This document shows positions 2,629-16,950 of a DNA stretch of 21,995 bases, in pieces (position 1 is the first letter of the stretch; the number at the start of each line of letters is the position of its first letter). A program made the position numbers and the translations under genes. The notes beneath the pieces were generated by a model that saw only the letters and a program-made list of their open reading frames with translations, was not told where the DNA came from and made no database searches. This DNA comes from a virus: positions 1 to 21,995 of the IMG/VR virus record IMGVR_UViG_3300027247_000028, one strand, 5' to 3'.

Positions 2629-4038
2629 CTAGATGCTTCTAGATTCTGCAAGTTTTTTATAATATTCTGACTTTTCGAATAGCTGGTAAGATGTAGACTT
2701 ATACTGCTTTCGTTTGTTATATAGGTCAGTAAGAATTTGTTTTAACATCGAGTCTTCTTTGTTATAAACAACTCCATTCTCGCAAACAATTACATTTTTA
2801 TCTTTTCTGCGTTCTTCGATTTTTGCAGCAGTTACCTTTTCAATATATGAATCCGGTGAAATATTAAACTGTCGCATAATTGAAGGATATAGAGACGCAA
2901 AGTCAAATGCACTTACTCCAGCATAGAAACCAACTTTAGGTTCTTTAACAAATGCTCCAGCAAATTGTGTATCTTTTACACCATCATCTCTTTGCTCAGT
3001 ACCGATTCTTAGTCCATCTTCTGCCATTTTTCTGGCGATTAAGGCTTCAGTTACAGCAACCGGAGAGGCTGCTTTATAAATTGGCATTCTAGTAATATTT
3101 GCCAATGTTAAAAGAACTTCCATTGATTTTAATTTTTGGTCAATGAAATAAACCAGCACTGAATCGACTACGTTATAATATACATACTTTTTAAAATCAT
3201 CTCGATACAGGTCTTGTAAACCTCCGTTATATTTGATTTTTCCAATACCAAGAACTTGTCCAGAAACATAATCAAGAGAGTTAGATTCTTTTACTTTTAC
3301 AGTTCTATCGTACTTATCATAAAGTTGCATGTAATCTAGAATTCCCATATGAAGAGGTCTAGAATCTGTTGAATCGAGTGCTTTGGTAATTGCTGATTCA
3401 GCGATATCGATTTGTAAATGTTTACAACGATTAACAATATATTGCCAGTCATAGTTAATAAAGTTCCAACCTGACATCATTGGGAATTTAGGCATGAATT
3501 TATACAGGAATGTATAAACCATATCATATTCTGTTTTGAACTTTATATATTGAAAAGTCCAGTTAACTCCAAATTGTTTAAAATAATCATTAGTATCTTT
3601 TTCAATCTGGGAGATTTGCTCAGCATCAAGGTCTTCTAAACCTAATACAATTGTTTTTCCGTTTGGCGTAATGATAGAGAATGTTAAGATACGAGATTTT
3701 GCTTCTTCTGCTCTTGGAAAACCATCAACGATTTCTGTTTCAATATCGACAAAATAAGTCTTTGGCATATTGTATGCATATATCTCTTCTTTGTCCTTTT
3801 CAGGGAGACTATCCATAAAATATACTAATGAAAATTTATTAAACTGACGAGAATTTTGTAATTTAACTGATCTTCCGTCCCAGTTTTTAACTTTGGTACT
3901 TAAATCTCTTTCTTTGGCGTCGCAAACTGCCCAGTTTTGGTATTGTGGAATTGGGTATCTTTTAAATGCTACTTCTCCGGCTGGATTGTAGTATGAAACC
4001 ATTATTTCTTTATCTCGTTGCTCTATGTCTAATAACAT
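2629..4038 (-). CDS. 43A: Family B DNA polymerase, N-terminal half (exonuclease domain plus palm motif A); split gp43-type
   Basis: First half of a T4 gp43-like replicative polymerase. Exonuclease motifs are intact: exo I FVDIETE (D98, E100), exo II NFINYD (N192, D197) and exo III YYNVVD (Y288, D292). The GAFV turn (361-364) and palm motif A, DFASLYPSI from D379, follow. The ORF stops with TAG at residue 469, in the finger region (LYNKRKQYKS). Motif B (NSxYG) and the catalytic D-T-D of motif C are both missing. Only 51 bases separate it from nrdB, so the second half must be encoded outside this window. Split gp43 genes are known in some T4-like phages (43A/43B), so a natural split is more likely than decay; the exonuclease half shows no damage. 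The start ATG lies 8 bases after an exact TATAAATA. A sequencing error is unlikely, since no polymerase sequence follows in any frame. Confidence 0.9.
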   Translation of the reverse strand: MLLDIEQRDKEIMVSYYNPAGEVAFKRYPIPQYQNWAVCDAKERDLSTKVKNWDGRSVKLQNSRQFNKFSLVYFMDSLPEKDKEEIYAYNMPKTYFVDIETEIVDGFPRAEEAKSRILTFSIITPNGKTIVLGLEDLDAEQISQIEKDTNDYFKQFGVNWTFQYIKFKTEYDMVYTFLYKFMPKFPMMSGWNFINYDWQYIVNRCKHLQIDIAESAITKALDSTDSRPLHMGILDYMQLYDKYDRTVKVKESNSLDYVSGQVLGIGKIKYNGGLQDLYRDDFKKYVYYNVVDSVLVYFIDQKLKSMEVLLTLANITRMPIYKAASPVAVTEALIARKMAEDGLRIGTEQRDDGVKDTQFAGAFVKEPKVGFYAGVSAFDFASLYPSIMRQFNISPDSYIEKVTAAKIEERRKDKNVIVCENGVVYNKEDSMLKQILTDLYNKRKQYKSTSYQLFEKSEYYKKLAESRSI

Positions 4039-4059: not shown

Positions 4060-4527
4060 TTAATATCCTCTAGCTTGTCTTTGTTTATTCTCTTCTGCTT
4101 TTGCAAAATAATAATTGTAAGCTGTTTTTGCATCTAATCCAATTGAAGATGCATAGTTAATAAAGAAGTGTAGAATGTCTACCCATTCCATATACAATTC
4201 TTTCTTATCGTTTTCAGATAGGTCAGAGATTTTCATGTTCTCATATTTCTTATGAGCAGTTTTCCAGTATTTCCATACTGCATTTCCATCTCCATCTTTA
4301 ATACCACCAAGAGCATCAGTCATCTCGTGAATTTCATCAACTACTGCATGTGTATTAACATGCCAAAAGTTCATAATATCGCGGATAGACATTTCATCAA
4401 AATTAAACCCATAAGTTTGTTGTTGCATGATTTTCTGATTCTCCATAATGTCAGCTAAATGTGTAGTTGACTTGTCATAGAAGTTAACAACTTCTAAATC
4501 TTTGCATTCGTTGTCTATGTTTGCCAT
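4060..4527 (-). CDS. All-alpha dimeric dUTPase (MazG-like superfamily)
   Basis: Hydrolyses dUTP (and probably dUDP) to dUMP, which keeps uracil out of DNA and feeds thymidylate synthesis. The helical metal-binding signature is present: E-x-x-E in VVDEIHEM (E65, E68) and E-x-x-D in EWVDILHFF (E114, D117). The C-terminus, ENKQRQARGY, matches the N-x-x-RQ-x-GY ending typical of phage and Trypanosoma-type dimeric dUTPases. The 155-aa length fits the compact members. It sits directly upstream of the polymerase and ribonucleotide reductase genes, as part of a nucleotide-supply unit, and next to the possible thymine-modification gene. MazG-type pyrophosphatase is the alternative, but the C-terminal motif favours dUTPase. 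Confidence 0.85.
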   Translation of the reverse strand: MANIDNECKDLEVVNFYDKSTTHLADIMENQKIMQQQTYGFNFDEMSIRDIMNFWHVNTHAVVDEIHEMTDALGGIKDGDGNAVWKYWKTAHKKYENMKISDLSENDKKELYMEWVDILHFFINYASSIGLDAKTAYNYYFAKAEENKQRQARGY

Positions 4528-4548: not shown

Positions 4549-5589
4549 TTAGAAAAGAGCGTTTTGTTCAAAGTTATTATTAAAAAAATAATCCATTAGA
4601 GAAGTGTCAGCTCTTGCAACTTTTCTTCGATTAATTAGATGTGGGTTACTTCTTAGTCGGTAATAAACTCCATACTGACAAAGTCCTACTTCGCAACCGT
4701 ATGTTTTTAAATCGTCTTGCTCGTCTTGGAAAATCTTCTTGCCATTTACTTCGACATTATGGGTTGATTCATGCAGAGGAATATCTCCAATTAAGTCCTT
4801 ATAGTTCTCTCTAAACCAAATTACCCTGTCACCGTATGGAATATTACAATCTTCGCCAAACATTAAGTCTAACGTAAATCTAGCTCCTGGTCCTGGTACG
4901 CAGAATCTTTCGTCATGATTAACATTGATTCTTGGATTTACCGAATTAGACGTTGAGCAGTGATATCCGTAGTACTGTCCTACACCTTCTAGTGAGGACA
5001 TAATTTCATACATCTCGCTTAAAGAGTTAACCTGGGCCATCCTTCCAGTGATTCCTCGAGGTATAAATGACGCTACCCATAATAAAATATTAATTTTATG
5101 AGCATCTCGTTCCTGGTTTCTAGTCTGAGCAACGTAAGTATTGGCTGCGCCAAATAAACTTGTACGTAATTCAGTACTACCGTAGATCGGCAAACCTAAA
5201 GAAACTGCGTCTTCTAAATTCTTGCGAATTTTATTTTCATATTCTCTGTCGACTAAAAGTCTTTCAAAGTCAATAAGAGCTGTTTTAGGATTTGGATCTC
5301 TTGTTAGAATCTGGTGAATTCCACGAGCTCCGTAAAAGTGAGAAATAATTGTATTGCAGATAATATTGTCCATTGAGATTGGAGCATATACAATATTCTC
5401 CATAATATATCTCATACGGTCATCTAGAGTAATTTGTGGATGGAAGTATTCTACTGTTTCTCCTAACGCATCATCTCCACCGCTATCATAAGTATCGAGA
5501 ACACCCATATTGTAGAGAGCTCTTTCGTTAACTTTGTTAAAGAATCTACCGATATCTTTAACGACTTCCATATTTACCCTATCTCTCAT
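4549..5589 (-). CDS. Helical protein resembling alpha-glutamyl/putrescinyl-thymine pyrophosphorylases and HMdU-kinase helical domains
   Basis: The family remodels 5-hydroxymethyluracil in phage DNA: the pyrophosphorylated base is attacked by an amine or other nucleophile, giving hypermodified thymine. The match rests on a C-terminal helix-hairpin-helix-like stretch, LEGVGQYYGYH (200-210), then RFCVPGPGARFTLDLMF (228-244). This recalls the G-x-G-x-[FY]-x-x-[YH] and GPGA-R signatures of the family. The first 190 residues are mostly helical and I do not recognise them. The protein ends in E-Q-N-A-L-F, close to a Q-x-x-L-F sliding-clamp motif, which would suit an enzyme acting on newly made DNA. 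It lies 10 bases after the FkbM methyltransferase gene and 21 bases before dUTPase. The assignment is from motif memory only; a DNA-glycosylase-like HhH protein of other function is the main alternative. Confidence 0.55.
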   Translation of the reverse strand: MRDRVNMEVVKDIGRFFNKVNERALYNMGVLDTYDSGGDDALGETVEYFHPQITLDDRMRYIMENIVYAPISMDNIICNTIISHFYGARGIHQILTRDPNPKTALIDFERLLVDREYENKIRKNLEDAVSLGLPIYGSTELRTSLFGAANTYVAQTRNQERDAHKINILLWVASFIPRGITGRMAQVNSLSEMYEIMSSLEGVGQYYGYHCSTSNSVNPRINVNHDERFCVPGPGARFTLDLMFGEDCNIPYGDRVIWFRENYKDLIGDIPLHESTHNVEVNGKKIFQDEQDDLKTYGCEVGLCQYGVYYRLRSNPHLINRRKVARADTSLMDYFFNNNFEQNALF

Positions 5590-5598
5590 TTTTAATTT

Positions 5599-6267
5599 TT
5601 ATTTTGTGAACCAGCAATCGTAACCTGCTACGCTTTGAAATACGATTAATTCCTTAACGTGCTGTTTTGGATATAGAGCTGATAATCTTTCTAATGTAGG
5701 TTGAGCATATTGTTTAACTTTACCCATGTGTAATTCTACAAATAAGGCGTCTGGCTGGTATGCTTCTACAAATTCGATAATTTGATATTCTGCTCCTTCA
5801 ATATCAATTTTAATAATATCTGGTTGATATTTCTTTAAGAGCTCGCTGATGTGAATGTTAATAACTTCATCATAGTCGGTAAATTTACTACGTTTCATAA
5901 TAGAAACCGAGCAGTGTGCCTGTTGGCTATTACCTTTATAGATTCTAATAGAAGGTGCTGTACTATCCGATACTGCAGCATGAATTATAGTTGCTTTAGG
6001 CTCGTCTGCAAAACTTTCTGCCATTTTTTCGTAATTGCGAATATCGCATTCTACAGTGTAAACTGCTTTGGCTCCTCCGTCAATTGCTACTTTAGTAAAA
6101 CCTCCAACATTTCCACCTAAATCTAAACAAACTTTATCAGTGAAGTCTATTTCCGGAGTCATGTAATTAGTAATACAGTCAACGATCATGTTTTTATCAA
6201 CTGATTCTGTTGCATTCAAATACTTAATGTATTTTCTTTTTAATTCTCTTTGTACTGGTGTTAACAT
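5599..6267 (-). CDS. FkbM-family SAM-dependent methyltransferase
   Basis: Probable O-methyltransferase. The SAM-binding motif I is clear: CLDLGGNVGGFT (47-58), followed by the acidic residue of motif II in VYTVECD (E73). The FkbM hallmark IIKIDIEGAEYQIIE (K153, D155, E157) is well preserved. The 222-aa length is normal for the family. Members typically methylate hydroxyls on sugars or small molecules rather than bases. The gene is flanked at 6 bases by a HAD phosphatase gene and at 9 bases by the thymine-modification-like gene, so the substrate may be a sugar or inositol moiety made or attached by the neighbours. That substrate is inference; the fold and family are well supported. Confidence 0.88.
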   Translation of the reverse strand: MLTPVQRELKRKYIKYLNATESVDKNMIVDCITNYMTPEIDFTDKVCLDLGGNVGGFTKVAIDGGAKAVYTVECDIRNYEKMAESFADEPKATIIHAAVSDSTAPSIRIYKGNSQQAHCSVSIMKRSKFTDYDEVINIHISELLKKYQPDIIKIDIEGAEYQIIEFVEAYQPDALFVELHMGKVKQYAQPTLERLSALYPKQHVKELIVFQSVAGYDCWFTK

Positions 6268-6273
6268 ATTCTG

Positions 6274-6684
6274 TTATTTTTCTACTAAGTTTGATACTAT
6301 ATGAACTATATCTAGTTCTGGATGCGCTTGTTTAATTACTGCCATTTGAACCTCATCATCTTCAAAGAATCTAACAACTTCAATTCCATCTTTTTTCAGA
6401 TCAGAAATTGTTTTGGCTTTATGTTTTCCAGAAAAGATTCTAGCTTCTACGGTATGGTCTCCTCTTTCTGCTAATGTCATTTGATTAAAGAAAACATTAG
6501 TGGAGATATTAAGTTCTGCTAGTTTTTCAAAAACGTAAGGTGCCTCTTCTTGGCATCTACCTGTTATGATAACATCATCACTCCATCTTGGTCTAATACC
6601 AAGGGAAACTACTCCATCAAAATCGTATGCGTATATTTTATGTGTCATTGGTTTAAATTTTAGCCATTTCCTGAATACTGACAT
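6274..6684 (-). CDS. Small HAD-superfamily phosphatase-like protein
   Basis: Short 136-aa HAD fold without an obvious cap. Motif I is AYDFDGVVS, where the first Asp is the nucleophile. Motif II is IITGR (Thr). A lysine in GKHKAKTISDL fits motif III, and FFEDDEVQ supplies the acidic motif IV. All catalytic positions therefore look present. A second Met at residue 13 (MTHKIYAYDFDG) would place the nucleophile close to the start and could be the true start; neither has a Shine-Dalgarno. Substrate is unknown. Given the neighbouring inositol-phosphate synthase, dephosphorylation of inositol or sugar phosphate is possible, but a nucleotide or polynucleotide 3'-phosphatase role is equally open. Its leader overlaps the terminator of the preceding gene. 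Confidence 0.75.
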   Translation of the reverse strand: MSVFRKWLKFKPMTHKIYAYDFDGVVSLGIRPRWSDDVIITGRCQEEAPYVFEKLAELNISTNVFFNQMTLAERGDHTVEARIFSGKHKAKTISDLKKDGIEVVRFFEDDEVQMAVIKQAHPELDIVHIVSNLVEK

Positions 6685-6695
6685 GCTTGTAAATT

Positions 6696-6722
6696 AAAAA
6701 GATGGAGAATTGCTTCTCCATC
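6696..6722 (-). terminator. Rho-independent terminator after the inositol-phosphate synthase gene
   Basis: A perfect 9-bp stem GATGGAGAA / TTCTCCATC (6701-6709 with 6714-6722) with a 4-base loop. On the minus strand it is followed by a run of five T (6700-6696). It begins 14 bases after the synthase stop codon and ends just before the HAD gene start, so it should reduce read-through into the downstream genes. Confidence 0.85.
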
Positions 6723-6736
6723 TTAGTGTTTGTGAA

Positions 6737-7915
6737 TTAAGCTTTAACTTGTTTAGCAGTAACCTTTGTTAGTTTGCGGTGAGCTAATGCTTCGCATTCT
6801 TGAACGGCATCTGTAAACATCATTTGCTGAGGTGGTGTTTTTTGAGTGAAAGCAGAAGGACCTCTTAAGGCTCCAACTATTCCCATTTCTCTTGCTACTC
6901 TTAAGTAACGAAGAGCGTCAATTACAACTCCTGCAGAGTTTGGAGAATCTTGTACTGAAAGTTGAGCATCAAAGATTACTGGTGCTCCACCAAATCCTTC
7001 AAGTTCTAAACGGAAGTTAGCAACTTTATTATCTCCATAATATGAGATATACTCAGAAGGACCAGCATGTAGGAATGAACCTTCGGTTGCGATTCCACGT
7101 ATTTCGTTTTGAGCACGAATTACGTTTTCTTTAGAAATCTTTTTAGATTTCAAACGGGTTTTGTCTTCCATATTCAAGAAGTCAGTGTTACCACCAACGT
7201 TACGTTGAATGTGTGCTTTTACAACATGTCCTCTTTCGAATGCAAGTTCTTGTAACATTTGAGACAAGATAGAAGCACCAAATTGAGAACGCATATCATC
7301 ACCAATTAATGGAATACCTGCGTCGATAAAACGTTTCTCCCATGCTGGATCAGATGCAATAAATACTGGAATACAGTTTACTAAAGAGATTCCAGTTTCT
7401 AGGCAGATTTCAGCCCAAAATTCTGTAGCATTTTGAGAACCTACCGGTAAGTAGTTAATCAATACTTCTACTTCATGCTCTTTTAATTGAGCAATAACTC
7501 TGTCTTTCCAAAGACGAGACTTTTTATCAGTCCAGTCAGTACGATTCATTTCTGTTGTATTTCTTAAATCTTCAGAAACTAAGAAACGATTTGCTTCTGG
7601 ATATGCATCCATTAACAACGCGTAACCATCAATTACAGGGGCTTCATAAACTGGAGCTTTAGATGTAATTTTTTCAACAATGTTCCATGCTGAATTTGGT
7701 TTTTGCTTCAAGGCAACTCCTAGAGGTTGATTAACTTTACGTTCATCGATGTCGAATGCGCAGACAAATTCAATGTCTTTTGCAGTGTAACCGCCGATGT
7801 CGCTTCTCATCATACCGTCGATGTTGGCTTGATTTTCAGTGTAGAATTGTACTCCTTCTACTAGAGATTTGGCACAGTTTCCTGTTCCAATGATTGCAAC
7901 TTTGATTTTACTCAT
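6737..7915 (-). CDS. ino1: myo-Inositol-1-phosphate synthase (inositol-3-phosphate synthase)
   Basis: Converts glucose-6-phosphate to myo-inositol phosphate in an NAD-dependent cyclisation. The N-terminal NAD-binding loop is VAIIGTGNCAKSL (G10, G12). Family blocks follow in order: NYLPVGSQNATEFW, NCIPVFIASDPAW, IPLIGDDMRSQFGAS, NVGGNTDFLNM, a lysine-rich RLKSKKISKENV, and VIFDAQLSVQDSPNSAGVV. At 392 aa it matches the compact archaeal/actinobacterial type rather than the roughly 530-aa eukaryotic form. The protein looks complete and active. It has its own terminator and a possible promoter, so it may be an independent transcription unit. An inositol-phosphate synthase is unexpected among replication and virion genes. 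It may feed DNA or glycan modification, or alter host inositol lipids; neither role is shown by the sequence. Confidence 0.93.
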   Translation of the reverse strand: MSKIKVAIIGTGNCAKSLVEGVQFYTENQANIDGMMRSDIGGYTAKDIEFVCAFDIDERKVNQPLGVALKQKPNSAWNIVEKITSKAPVYEAPVIDGYALLMDAYPEANRFLVSEDLRNTTEMNRTDWTDKKSRLWKDRVIAQLKEHEVEVLINYLPVGSQNATEFWAEICLETGISLVNCIPVFIASDPAWEKRFIDAGIPLIGDDMRSQFGASILSQMLQELAFERGHVVKAHIQRNVGGNTDFLNMEDKTRLKSKKISKENVIRAQNEIRGIATEGSFLHAGPSEYISYYGDNKVANFRLELEGFGGAPVIFDAQLSVQDSPNSAGVVIDALRYLRVAREMGIVGALRGPSAFTQKTPPQQMMFTDAVQECEALAHRKLTKVTAKQVKA

Positions 7916-7935
7916 GATTTTAGTAATTTGTTTAA

Positions 7936-7965
7936 GTTATACGTGATTTTTATTAAATGTTTCAA
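7936..7965 (-). promoter_or_regulatory. Possible sigma70-like promoter for the inositol-phosphate synthase gene
   Basis: On the minus strand TTGAAA (7965-7960) and TATAAC (7941-7936) are separated by 18 bases. The -10-like box ends 20 bases before the ATG. The boxes fit the bacterial consensus, but the region is very A/T-rich and a Bacteroidota host would prefer TAnnTTTG, which I do not see here. Confidence 0.3.
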
Positions 7966-9017
7966 AATAGGCTAACTACTTTTGGTTTAGGTGTTGGTTT
8001 TTTCTTTTTTTCTCCAGTTTCAAAATCATATTGATAATATTCTCTTGAAAGATGGACTGAACCAGGCTTTTCCATATAAGTGTCGGCATAGTCTTTAGGA
8101 CTTATGTTGAACCATTCGATAGGCCATTCGATTAATTCGAACCCGGCCTCACTTAGATATATACTCAGCTTTTTGTTGAAAATTCGACAGATTTCCAATC
8201 TTTTTTCTAATGAGCCATAAAATGGAGTTTTCTTGTAGAATCCAGTTTGTGGAATTCTTCTCTCTTCATGCTCGATTGGAAGTAATTGCATAACACTAAT
8301 CTTTTCGATGTTTAATGTCTTTAGCTGATCGACATAGTTTTTAACTAGTTCTTCAGTTGCTTTTACTGGATCGGCTTGACGGCACAAATGATGTCTAATA
8401 TCGATATTGCCGAAATAAGTTACCAAATGTTTGGTACCTTGTGGTACATAAGTACCAATTCCCTCTTTAAGGATTCCAAATAATGTTTTACCATCGTTTC
8501 TGGAAATATCAGCTCCGGGAATGTAAGCAGATACTGAATGGCTATCGCCTAGTACAAAGGTACCCTTGTTAAGGGTTAAATCAATAGTTTCTACTGACTT
8601 TGCCCTTGTTGACAGGAGTTCAACGTCTAACGCTTTCCAATTGTCTGTACATGAAGACATTCTACTTTGTGCAAATACACCGACGTCAGGCATTTGTCTA
8701 TTAAGACAATATACTTCTCCTTTAAAATCAATAAATCTTTGGATTCTAGCGGCTGGTTCATCTCCTGCTCCGCCAAAAAGATTGTAACTACCTTGGAATT
8801 CCATCGGTAGGGCTACCATCCAAACGTCAAAATCATGAATGTTTCCGTCTTTTGTTAAGACAGTAACATCCAATCCTAGGCTTTTTAGTTGGGACATTAA
8901 TAAATACGTCCATGCTGATTTGTGAGATTCTGGTCTAGAGCTGTAAGTAGTTACTACATCATCAATGGCAATTTTCTTGCCGACCAAATTATCTTTTACA
9001 TCATAGATACTAATCAT
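7962..9017 (-). CDS. Two-domain protein with a C-terminal SGNH-hydrolase-like domain
   Basis: Residues 1-130 look like an alpha/beta (Rossmann-like) domain with a LFGG stretch (80-83) that I cannot assign. The C-terminal part carries SGNH/GDSL-type blocks: block I FVLGDSHSVSAY (G157, D158, S159), block III YFGNIDIRHH (N204, D206) and a block V-like SVHLS (H322). This layout is common in esterases and acyl-modifying enzymes of glycan loci, often near FkbM methyltransferases, so removal or transfer of an acyl group on a sugar-like moiety is plausible. A lysine- and proline-rich tail (KKKKPTPKPK) ends in V-V-S-L-F, resembling a clamp-binding peptide. The start overlaps the end of the 92-aa gene by 8 bases, so translation is probably coupled. 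Substrate unknown. Confidence 0.6.
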   Translation of the reverse strand: MISIYDVKDNLVGKKIAIDDVVTTYSSRPESHKSAWTYLLMSQLKSLGLDVTVLTKDGNIHDFDVWMVALPMEFQGSYNLFGGAGDEPAARIQRFIDFKGEVYCLNRQMPDVGVFAQSRMSSCTDNWKALDVELLSTRAKSVETIDLTLNKGTFVLGDSHSVSAYIPGADISRNDGKTLFGILKEGIGTYVPQGTKHLVTYFGNIDIRHHLCRQADPVKATEELVKNYVDQLKTLNIEKISVMQLLPIEHEERRIPQTGFYKKTPFYGSLEKRLEICRIFNKKLSIYLSEAGFELIEWPIEWFNISPKDYADTYMEKPGSVHLSREYYQYDFETGEKKKKPTPKPKVVSLF

Positions 9018-9288
9018 TTGCTTTTGTTTTATCGTTGATGTAGTTTTCTAATCCTTGGATATATGCAACTGCATCTAACAAGTTATCTTGCTTATGATTG
9101 TAACTTTCTCTAGAGAATTTTAAAGCAACTAAGGCTTTAAACATATGTTCTCCAGTTACTGGGAATCCGGTCATGCCTTGAAAAATTAAGGCTGCACGGT
9201 CCATACCTTCTGAAAAAGGACCATAGTTGCGGTCTGCTTCTTCTGATCTGTGATTGACGATTTTGTCTGCTTCTTCTAAAATACTCAT
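9010..9288 (-). CDS. Conserved small phage protein, DUF6378-like
   Basis: A 92-aa helical protein. The pattern ILEEADKIVN, then RNYGPFSEGMDRAALIF, then FKALVALKFSRESYNHKQDNLLDAVAYIQGLE resembles a common small phage family (I believe DUF6378), with the YG-P, K-x-x-R and D-N-L-x-D-A-x-x-Y positions conserved. The function of that family is not established; the acidic and His positions hint at a metal- or nucleotide-binding helical fold, but this is inference. It overlaps the SGNH-like gene by 8 bases and stops with TAG. Confidence 0.65.
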   Translation of the reverse strand: MSILEEADKIVNHRSEEADRNYGPFSEGMDRAALIFQGMTGFPVTGEHMFKALVALKFSRESYNHKQDNLLDAVAYIQGLENYINDKTKAND

Positions 9289-15669: not shown

Positions 15670-16950
15670 TTATCTTCCGTATTTTATAATACCCATTAAT
15701 TGATTAATTGCTGCAAATGTACCAGTTAATTTATACATCTTGCCTTTATATTTAAATACTAGTCCTTCAGTTGGGATAATTGAATCGATACCACCGATTC
15801 TTTCTAGTCTAGCTAATTCTCCTTCAACCTTACTAATTTGAGAAAGGTCTCCGTTTTGTTTAATCTTATCAGCTTCAGTTCTAATTTGATTATGTAGTCT
15901 CTGCATTTCCTGATCAGGATTTGCAGCTAATAAATTAGAAACGTTTTTAAGAACGACAGATCCTAATTCTAAGAAGATGTTTTCGAAAGGTAAGATATTC
16001 TCTTTGTATTTCTTTTTAGCATCGTTCTTTTCAAAATCTTGTAACTTTTTATATTCTGATGGTGCAATTTGTTTAGCAACTTCGCGGATATTTAATGATT
16101 TTTTGTCATCAAAAGCCCAACGTAATACTAAACCTTCTTTGGTAGCATCATCTAAATCTGGGAAAGTTTTTGTAATAAGTTCTCTCCACCACATTTCATG
16201 GTATCTAGAAACTGAATCAGTATCATTTAACTTATAAACGTTTTGTAAGGCTTGTACCTTACCTAGGAAATATCCTTTTTTCTCTTCAAAGTCTACTGAT
16301 TTTCCAATCACTAAATCCTGTGGAGGTATAATACTAAATGTCTTTTGTACATCGGCTGCTACTGAATTCAGAGCGCTTTGTACTTTTTTAGCAACTTTAG
16401 AATCAGATCCAGTCTGATTTCCAGCTCCGTCAGTATGTACAATACCGTGGAATTGAATAACATCACGGTCATAATTAATTACATTTGAGTTTCCAGAGTA
16501 AATTAACTCCATATTCATAAATGATGTACCATTATTAAAGTCTTCAATATCTTTACCTTTCAGTGAACTTAGAGCCTTGTCTAGGTCAGCAGCTGCAAAG
16601 GTGAATGTATCTCTTACTGCTTGAGAAGGGTGATCCGTGAACATACTCTGAACCTGTGATAGATTAATAGGATTAGCCATTTGACCCTTGTTTCTAGCAA
16701 AAAGAACTTGACCATCTTTAATCGTAACAAATAGATTTTGTCCATCTGTTTTTTCGGTAGGAGCGTCTTCGAAATCTAAACGACCATCTAATGCTGAATC
16801 AATTAGAGTCTTAAAGTCTCCAAAAGTTAAATCATTATCGTCGAATGGATGCATCATGTGACCTGCTGCTCCGCCTTCTAATACTAGAGAAGGGAATTTA
16901 GAATTCCATCTTTCTAGTAAAAATTCTTTATATGTCTGTAGTGTATTCAT
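15670..16950 (-). CDS. Ligase-like covalent nucleotidyltransferase with capsid-targeting-like leader
   Basis: A 426-aa protein with the order of motifs seen in ATP-dependent DNA/RNA ligases. Motif I is PTEKTDGQNLF (K67 would carry AMP), then LFARNKGQ (83-90), motif III FMNMELIY (E148), and near the C-terminus EGLVFKYKGKMYKLTG (motifs IV-V, E395 and K407). About 245 residues lie between motifs III and IV, far more than in standard ligases, and there is no C-terminal OB domain. It opens with Q-T-Y-K-E-F-L-L-E (5-13), very close to T4 MKTYQEFIAE, and V-L-E|G follows at 23-26. It lies after a terminator and begins a run of tightly coupled genes. Substrate (RNA, DNA or protein) cannot be told from sequence. 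Confidence 0.75.
   Translation of the reverse strand: MNTLQTYKEFLLERWNSKFPSLVLEGGAAGHMMHPFDDNDLTFGDFKTLIDSALDGRLDFEDAPTEKTDGQNLFVTIKDGQVLFARNKGQMANPINLSQVQSMFTDHPSQAVRDTFTFAAADLDKALSSLKGKDIEDFNNGTSFMNMELIYSGNSNVINYDRDVIQFHGIVHTDGAGNQTGSDSKVAKKVQSALNSVAADVQKTFSIIPPQDLVIGKSVDFEEKKGYFLGKVQALQNVYKLNDTDSVSRYHEMWWRELITKTFPDLDDATKEGLVLRWAFDDKKSLNIREVAKQIAPSEYKKLQDFEKNDAKKKYKENILPFENIFLELGSVVLKNVSNLLAANPDQEMQRLHNQIRTEADKIKQNGDLSQISKVEGELARLERIGGIDSIIPTEGLVFKYKGKMYKLTGTFAAINQLMGIIKYGR

Follow-up and report, generated by a model that had tools for sequence, protein, structure and literature searches.

Why should a T4-like virus of aquatic bacteria encode its own enzyme for inositol synthesis, and what would it do with the product? 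This question is raised by the IMG/VR record IMGVR_UViG_3300027247_000028, a fragment of a T4-like phage which was analysed over its entire 21,995 bases (hereafter, the window) and which had no match to phage records in a whole-window megablast. In this fragment, a myo-inositol-3-phosphate synthase gene (Ino1) lies within a cassette of five contiguous genes, together with those of a small HAD phosphatase, an FkbM-family O-methyltransferase, a PF18723 protein and an SGNH (GDSL-like) protein. It can be stated with a confidence close to certainty that the cassette is a DNA-hypermodification operon, and it is probable that inositol, or a direct derivative of it, is the group attached to the base. 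The full model, an operon of T4-like phages that decorates 5-hydroxymethylcytosine (hmC) with inositol, is favoured with less assurance, its catalytic steps being predicted from sequence. A first-pass annotation of the window, made from its letters alone, had pointed to the same five genes, and all five open reading frames (ORFs) are present there, tightly spaced on the minus strand; the near-identical contigs L002-L006 show the same five:

4549..5589, minus strand: PF18723 (HMUDK_hel / aGPT-Pplase clade 1) protein, 346 amino acids (Pfam E 1.9e-13)
5599..6267, minus strand: FkbM-family O-methyltransferase, 222 amino acids (PF05050 E 3.6e-15; TIGR01444 E 1.5e-16)
6274..6684, minus strand: small HAD phosphatase, 136 amino acids (motifs only)
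6737..7915, minus strand: Ino1, myo-inositol-3-phosphate synthase, 392 amino acids (PF01658 E 1.4e-22; 1gr0 E 4e-79)
7962..9017, minus strand: SGNH (GDSL-like) protein with an N-terminal alpha/beta domain, 351 amino acids (motifs and fold)

In the profile searches that the annotation had called for, the PF18723, FkbM and Ino1 proteins scored above cut-off, while the HAD protein was recognised by its motifs and the SGNH protein by motifs and fold. PADLOC assigned no defence family.

The synthase had been described as complete, and this is borne out by the alignment of the window Ino1 (PF01658, 80.4 bits) over its full length to the Mycobacterium tuberculosis enzyme, with the NVGGN-DFLNM, SKKISK and DSPNSAGV motifs kept. 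The NCBIfam equivalog for mycothiol Ino1, TIGR03450, gave 287.6 bits and its cut-off of 638 was not reached; judging from these scores, the protein is an Ino1 homologue and not an orthologue of the mycothiol enzyme. Phage homologues of Ino1 are found in Stenotrophomonas phages and in the Caulobacter phage Cr30. The neighbouring HAD protein of the window has no match in Pfam and a weak one to the PNK-like family phrog_415 (E 0.003), and it carries the DFDGV (DxDGV) nucleophile, ITGR as motif II, GKHKA as motif III and FEDD as motif IV. These motifs are kept in the homologues that stand beside Ino1 in Cr30, in Stenotrophomonas phage Mendera (where the HAD gene was detected by tblastn and alignment), in the contig L162 and in others, and DxDG is present in 171 of 174 HAD sequences. 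The two genes lie at most 200 bp apart in 103 of the 111 loci where hidden Markov models (HMMs) found both. The HAD protein is probably an inositol-phosphate phosphatase, and as such the natural candidate for releasing free inositol; inositol phosphate may also be the donor itself.

The genomic contexts of Ino1 indicate what this inositol may be for. A first scan of IMG/VR, with the window Ino1 as sole anchor, returned 80 loci, and further scans with the Ino1 of Mendera and Cr30 reached distant relatives with different neighbours; the scans relied on exact peptide patterns and could miss other kinds of phage Ino1. Of these 80 loci, nearly all of those long enough to show it keep the order DUF6378, SGNH, Ino1, HAD, FkbM, PF18723, MazG, polymerase; this order holds over ~80 contigs, down to ~80% Ino1 identity, and in distant contigs the genes are rearranged and still co-occur. 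Co-occurrence of the set in related phages, which had been proposed as a test of the island, is thus strongly positive. Chance neighbourhood is excluded because of the synteny across these contigs, and the idea that these are ordinary neighbours with no shared function, refuted by the synteny together with the rearranged co-occurrence, retains next to no probability. As regards the neighbours themselves, 121 Ino1-selected loci were typed with HMMs built from the cassette proteins; the loci are not independent, some records being duplicates of one phage, hence they were also clustered at 90% Ino1 identity. SGNH and/or PF18723 accompany Ino1 in 86 loci (type 1, 16 clusters), and the PF18724 amino acid:DNA transferase (ADDT) and/or a P-loop kinase do so in 29 (15 clusters, including the cultured Cr30), among which a TET/JBP dioxygenase is present in 21, verified by Pfam in representatives. 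ADDT is absent by this typing from the window and the window-type loci. Five loci (3 clusters) have QueC/DpdA-like 7-deazaguanine genes, and the last one, L162, has a P-loop kinase, a dUMP-hydroxymethylase-like thymidylate synthase (TS) and an HD protein arranged as in the M6-like phage AN14. In a 389-kb contig of jumbo-phage size (L140), the SGNH, Ino1, PF18723, FkbM and HAD genes are scattered over ~10 kb, and one in-frame TGA is reported in the frame of its dCMP-type TS.

Searches anchored on Ino1 alone all led to DNA-modification genes, and a role of Ino1 in DNA modification is probable. It might nonetheless be argued that Ino1 and HAD are a metabolic unit of the auxiliary kind, serving an osmolyte, a lipid or a surface glycan, that merely travels beside modification genes. 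Aquatic T4-like phages commonly carry auxiliary genes, proteins of the SGNH and FkbM families act on glycans elsewhere, and the ino1 of a Stenotrophomonas phage has been listed as a presumed bacterial acquisition (PMC9025141). However, in 120 of the 121 loci, and in the last one as well, Ino1 is surrounded by DNA-modification genes, which fall into three or more unrelated kinds, and it has no conserved association with lipid or glycan genes, which makes such a unit very improbable. The annotation's idea of a hypermodification island with its own inositol supply gains instead from the recurrence of the Ino1-HAD pair with independent DNA-base transferase systems.

The protein most directly linked to known base modification is the one that had been called thymine-pyrophosphorylase-like; it belongs to PF18723 (HMUDK_hel, 50.9 bits versus a curated cut-off of 25), formerly named thymine pyrophosphorylase clade 1. 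Cys304, G204, G233 and G235, the two last within a GPG motif at 233-235 of the window protein, are identical in 27 of 27 aligned sequences, among them those of phages ViI, phiW-14 and AN14. In these three phages the PF18723 proteins stand alone, with 323-418 residues and no recognisable P-loop domain; ViI, phiW-14 and the M6-like phages are of the kind carrying hypermodified thymidine (PMC6449724). The best Foldseek match of an AF2 model of the window protein (pLDDT 84) was the 5-phosphomethyl-dU glycinyltransferase 8z2n (probability 0.92, E 0.05, TM ~0.3), followed by the OGG1/AGOG 8-oxoguanine DNA glycosylases. These scores are weak, and the model suggests, rather than proves, a base-flipping, DNA-glycosylase-like fold. 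A phmmer search of the ViI, phiW-14 and Cr30 proteins against the PDB gave no match, and a search of PDB sequences with a profile of the PF18723 alignment gave nothing useful. A chromosomal PF18723 homologue, 54% identical, was also observed in a Crocinitomix algicola contig (L250 7560-9589), between an XRE-type helix-turn-helix gene and a gene for a 184-amino-acid protein of unknown function, with no phage genes around it; to judge by this setting, it is possibly a bacterial defence unit sensing modified DNA.

The SGNH protein presents a different case, since its Pfam GDSL match (E 0.14) is below cut-off and its assignment comes from motifs and from a predicted fold with matches to sialate O-acetylesterases and GDSL proteins (probability ~1.0). 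The GDSHS, RNDG, GNID and SVHLS blocks are invariant in 16 homologues, including S159, G176, N204 and H322 of blocks I, II, III and V; the Asp that is usual three positions ahead of the catalytic His is missing in them, Gly or Lys being found there instead. The N-terminal domain may resemble the beta-glucosyltransferase (BGT) of T4, to which it gave low-probability Foldseek matches and an hhalign probability of only 20%. Profile matches of the SGNH alignment to ribosomal protein uS15 in PDB sequences were chance-like and were discarded. In the Aeromonas phages 44RR and 31, the SGNH protein is fused to PF18723, and because of this fusion the pair probably works on DNA as a single unit.

Which base would receive the inositol? 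The first-pass annotation had proposed activated hydroxymethyluracil (hmU), and the TS genes of the relatives tell otherwise. Residues 177 (E. coli numbering) and 147 were read by alignment, and the relatives on long contigs have two genes of the TS family. One of them is an ordinary ThyA with Asn177 and His147; the other, which is diverged, has Asp177 and Thr147. The diverged TS is of this latter kind in all contigs with a window-type cassette that carry one, and in several of L201-L232 it lies inside or next to the cassette. By established TS chemistry, the Asp177 form is cytosine-directed. Asp177 also marks modified-cytosine contigs in the MetaGPA study (PMC8670742). Some relatives have, inside the cassette, a T4-type BGT in which the active-site residues of the T4 enzyme (E22, D100, R191, R195 and E272) are kept. 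The closest long relative, G025, whose PF18723 protein is 92% identical to that of the window, combines the Asp177/Thr147 TS with a T4-type BGT between HAD and FkbM. It is because of this dCMP-type TS of the relatives, and of the BGT in some cassettes, that hmC is inferred for the window phage; hmC, rather than hmU, is very probably the base in the whole window-cassette family, as far as these sequences indicate. In favour of hmU, it can be said that PF18723 owes its name to a 5-hmdU DNA kinase, that the hmU phages ViI, phiW-14 and the M6-like AN14 have members of this family, and that L162 pairs Ino1-HAD with a dUMP-hydroxymethylase-like TS. Nonetheless, the diverged TS of the window-type contigs is Asp177/Thr147 throughout, the other is an ordinary ThyA, and hmC is what the BGT found in some cassettes modifies in T4, so that hmU as the substrate is very improbable.

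The annotation had also proposed to look for a dUMP hydroxymethylase and an HMdUMP kinase elsewhere in the genome. In their place, the relatives show the dCMP-type TS and ordinary ThyA, with neither a P-loop DNA kinase nor a T4-type dNMP kinase. The latter, gp1 (PF21448), is absent from G001-G012, contigs of 200-236 kb included, and a different kinase may replace it. No Cr30-type P-loop kinase is linked to window-type cassettes, the only candidate being a distant AAA_33 protein of 135 amino acids in G011, and no ParB-like domain was found in window-type phages. The activation of the hydroxymethyl group is unproven because no kinase was found for the window type.

According to the preferred model of an inositol-decorated hmC, a dCMP hydroxymethylase, whose gene would lie in another part of the genome and is seen in relatives, would make hmdCMP, which would enter DNA at replication. 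Ino1 would convert glucose-6-phosphate into inositol-3-phosphate, from which the adjacent HAD phosphatase would probably free inositol. The PF18723 protein would flip hmC out of the helix and, with its SGNH partner, would join inositol to the 5-CH2 group. A kinase-free route can be imagined, in a speculative manner, in which Cys304 adds to C6 of hmC, water is lost, and an inositol hydroxyl attacks; both the linkage chemistry and the order of action of SGNH and PF18723 are suggested rather than seen. Enzymes of the FkbM family are O-methyltransferases for the hydroxyls of sugars and the like, and in the phages that have one (PF05050 56.9 bits, cut-off 22.7, and TIGR01444 61.1, cut-off 37.7, for that of the window) it would methylate a hydroxyl of the inositol; it is regarded as accessory because it is present in only 12 of the 16 type-1 Ino1 clusters. 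In some relatives, the T4-type BGT would add glucose.

Several observations weigh against this model. A TS gene was not found in the 22-kb window fragment, and no activating kinase was found for the window-type cassette. The Foldseek support for the PF18723 fold is weak (E 0.05, TM ~0.3). In Aeromonas phage 44RR, the SGNH-PF18723 fusion is found together with a dCMP-type TS and without Ino1, and consequently the SGNH/PF18723 pair need not use phage-made inositol and may use another donor there. Finally, Ino1 also stands beside 7-deazaguanine genes, where no 5-CH2 handle is involved.

Some cassettes contain extra genes: a pyridoxal phosphate (PLP)-dependent enzyme (PF00291, L072 8996-9874), a 2-oxoglutarate (2OG)-Fe(II) oxygenase (PF13640, L066 8620-9183), a cyclic-phosphate receiver domain (PF20274, L012 13284-13781) and an additional FkbM (L047). 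Those of L072, L066 and L012 may tailor the base further. This variety (PLP enzyme, oxygenase, extra FkbM) is consistent with a hypermodification operon whose group is an inositol derivative, such as a phosphodiester-linked inositol phosphate or a cyclitol that has been oxidised or aminated, HAD then doing another step; so is a distant PDB match of the window Ino1 to 6k96, a synthase of a five-membered cyclitol phosphate. However, the window protein is far closer to true Ino1 (4e-79 versus 2e-45 for 6k96), HAD adjoins Ino1 in all contexts, and the core set needs no extra cyclitol enzymes, and an inositol derivative is therefore an unlikely, though not negligible, alternative to plain inositol.

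If the joined group is inositol, the pair that supplies it might not be tied to one machinery. The Ino1-HAD pair may well be, by a slight preference, a portable "inositol for DNA" module that phages have combined with several unrelated ways of modifying bases. In the window it would serve PF18723/SGNH and the hmC formed by a dCMP hydroxymethylase; in Cr30, ADDT and kinase together with the hydroxymethyl bases produced by TET; in L162, the M6-like hmU system; and in Mendera, the 7-deazaguanine systems. For instance, Cr30 has TET/JBP, ADDT, a TAGT-like protein, Ino1, HAD and a P-loop kinase within ~16 kb. Its gene at 59353-60681 (L083), which the record calls "SNF2 DNA repair protein", encodes a TET/JBP dioxygenase (PF12851 E 9e-23), its ADDT match is the best among Cr30-type cassettes (PF18724 E 1.3e-52), and the TAGT-like glycosyltransferase is below cut-off (E 8.5e-4). 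By analogy with glycinyl transfer to 5-phosphomethyl-dU, the Cr30 ADDT and kinase would offer a chemically sensible route if inositol is the nucleophile. In L082, L129, L130, L136 and L157, Ino1-HAD adjoins QueC/DpdA-like/QueE genes, and either an inositol-linked 7-deazaguanine or two separate side-by-side modifications are possible.

The window cassette shares features with several known systems. With the thymidine hypermodification of M6, ViI and phiW-14, in which 5-hmdU is acted upon by a kinase and then by an amino acid:DNA transferase, it has in common PF18723 with the same invariant Cys and glycine motif, a post-replicative decoration of a 5-hydroxymethylpyrimidine and a glycosylase-like transferase fold. 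It differs in that the base is probably hmC, there is no P-loop kinase, SGNH is the partner and the nucleophile comes from Ino1-HAD instead of amino-acid enzymes. The hmC glycosylation of T4 and RB69 (the dCMP hydroxymethylase gp42, BGT and the RB69 arabinosylation island) likewise belongs to T4-like phages with a dCMP-type TS, and BGT is present in the cassettes of some relatives; the RB69 island, too, adjoins gene 43, and a PNK-phosphatase-like gene, RB69p051, is listed in it (PMC8056088), to which the window HAD has no significant BLAST similarity. Unlike in these phages, an Ino1-made cyclitol would replace the nucleotide sugar, and PF18723 with SGNH would replace or supplement the glycosyltransferase. 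The Cr30-type sister cassettes share TET/JBP, ADDT (aGPT-Pplase2) and kinase with the operon of Rhodococcus phage Tonitrus (PMC11955845), in which Ino1-HAD is not reported, and insert this pair between ADDT and kinase; the window, in contrast to Tonitrus-type operons, has neither TET nor ADDT. Cytosine carboxymethylation and glycine ligation by CmoX/CmoY (PMC12783734) and 5hmC carbamoylation (PMC8670742) are likewise phage cytosine hypermodifications with an unusual handle or group, but the window cassette has no CmoX/CmoY and no carbamoyltransferase.

Hypermodified phage DNA is already known, and it is the predicted class of substituent that is new. In the open-access literature, neither an inositol-linked DNA base nor a phage Ino1 tied to DNA modification was found; subscription papers may mention either. 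If correct, the model would add a chemical class, the cyclitols, to the decorations of DNA bases, would explain the inositol synthase of Cr30 and the Menderaviruses, and would connect the SGNH and PF18723 proteins with the chemistry of DNA; if the pair is portable, cyclitol-linked bases would be a widespread kind of DNA modification that has so far escaped description. Polyols of this sort, uncharged and bulky, would lie in the major groove, where they would plausibly block both restriction enzymes and CRISPR nucleases; they may also serve as new DNA-labelling tools.

The main genes of the window are all on the minus strand, and those flanking the five are the following:

9010..9288, minus strand: DUF6378 protein, 92 amino acids, first cassette gene (PF19905 E 1.3e-8)
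4060..4527, minus strand: MazG/dUTPase_2-like NTP pyrophosphohydrolase, 155 amino acids (phrog_173 E 1e-12; phrog_18650 E 1e-8)
2629-4038: DNA polymerase, N-terminal half of a split gp43-like gene (phrog_2062)

The cassette is spaced by short gaps with one overlap, that of the DUF6378 gene with the start of the SGNH gene. DUF6378 is present in 73 of the 86 type-1 loci and a MazG-like gene is syntenic with the cassette in 47; the MazG/dUTPase_2-like enzyme possibly clears unmodified dCTP/dUTP. The annotation had named polymerase, dUTPase and virion genes as neighbours. The polymerase stands, although its gp43-like gene is split and only the N-terminal half is encoded here, the dUTPase becomes the pyrophosphohydrolase listed above, and most of the supposed virion genes encode proteins of unknown function that bear tags similar to capsid-targeting sequences. 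Between 9941 and 19552, consecutive proteins of 154, 182, 445, 619 and 426 amino acids bear FEQF(I/M)xE, FNEFINE or YKEFLLE at the N- or C-terminus, and an 848-amino-acid protein has a looser tag; these short tags resemble the capsid-targeting sequences of T4 internal proteins. The 619-amino-acid protein has a cytidylyltransferase-like domain (PF01467). That of 426 amino acids (15670-16950) has no Pfam match and contains a KTDGQN stretch which recalls motif I of ligases and nucleotidyltransferases, and it is possibly an ejected ligase.

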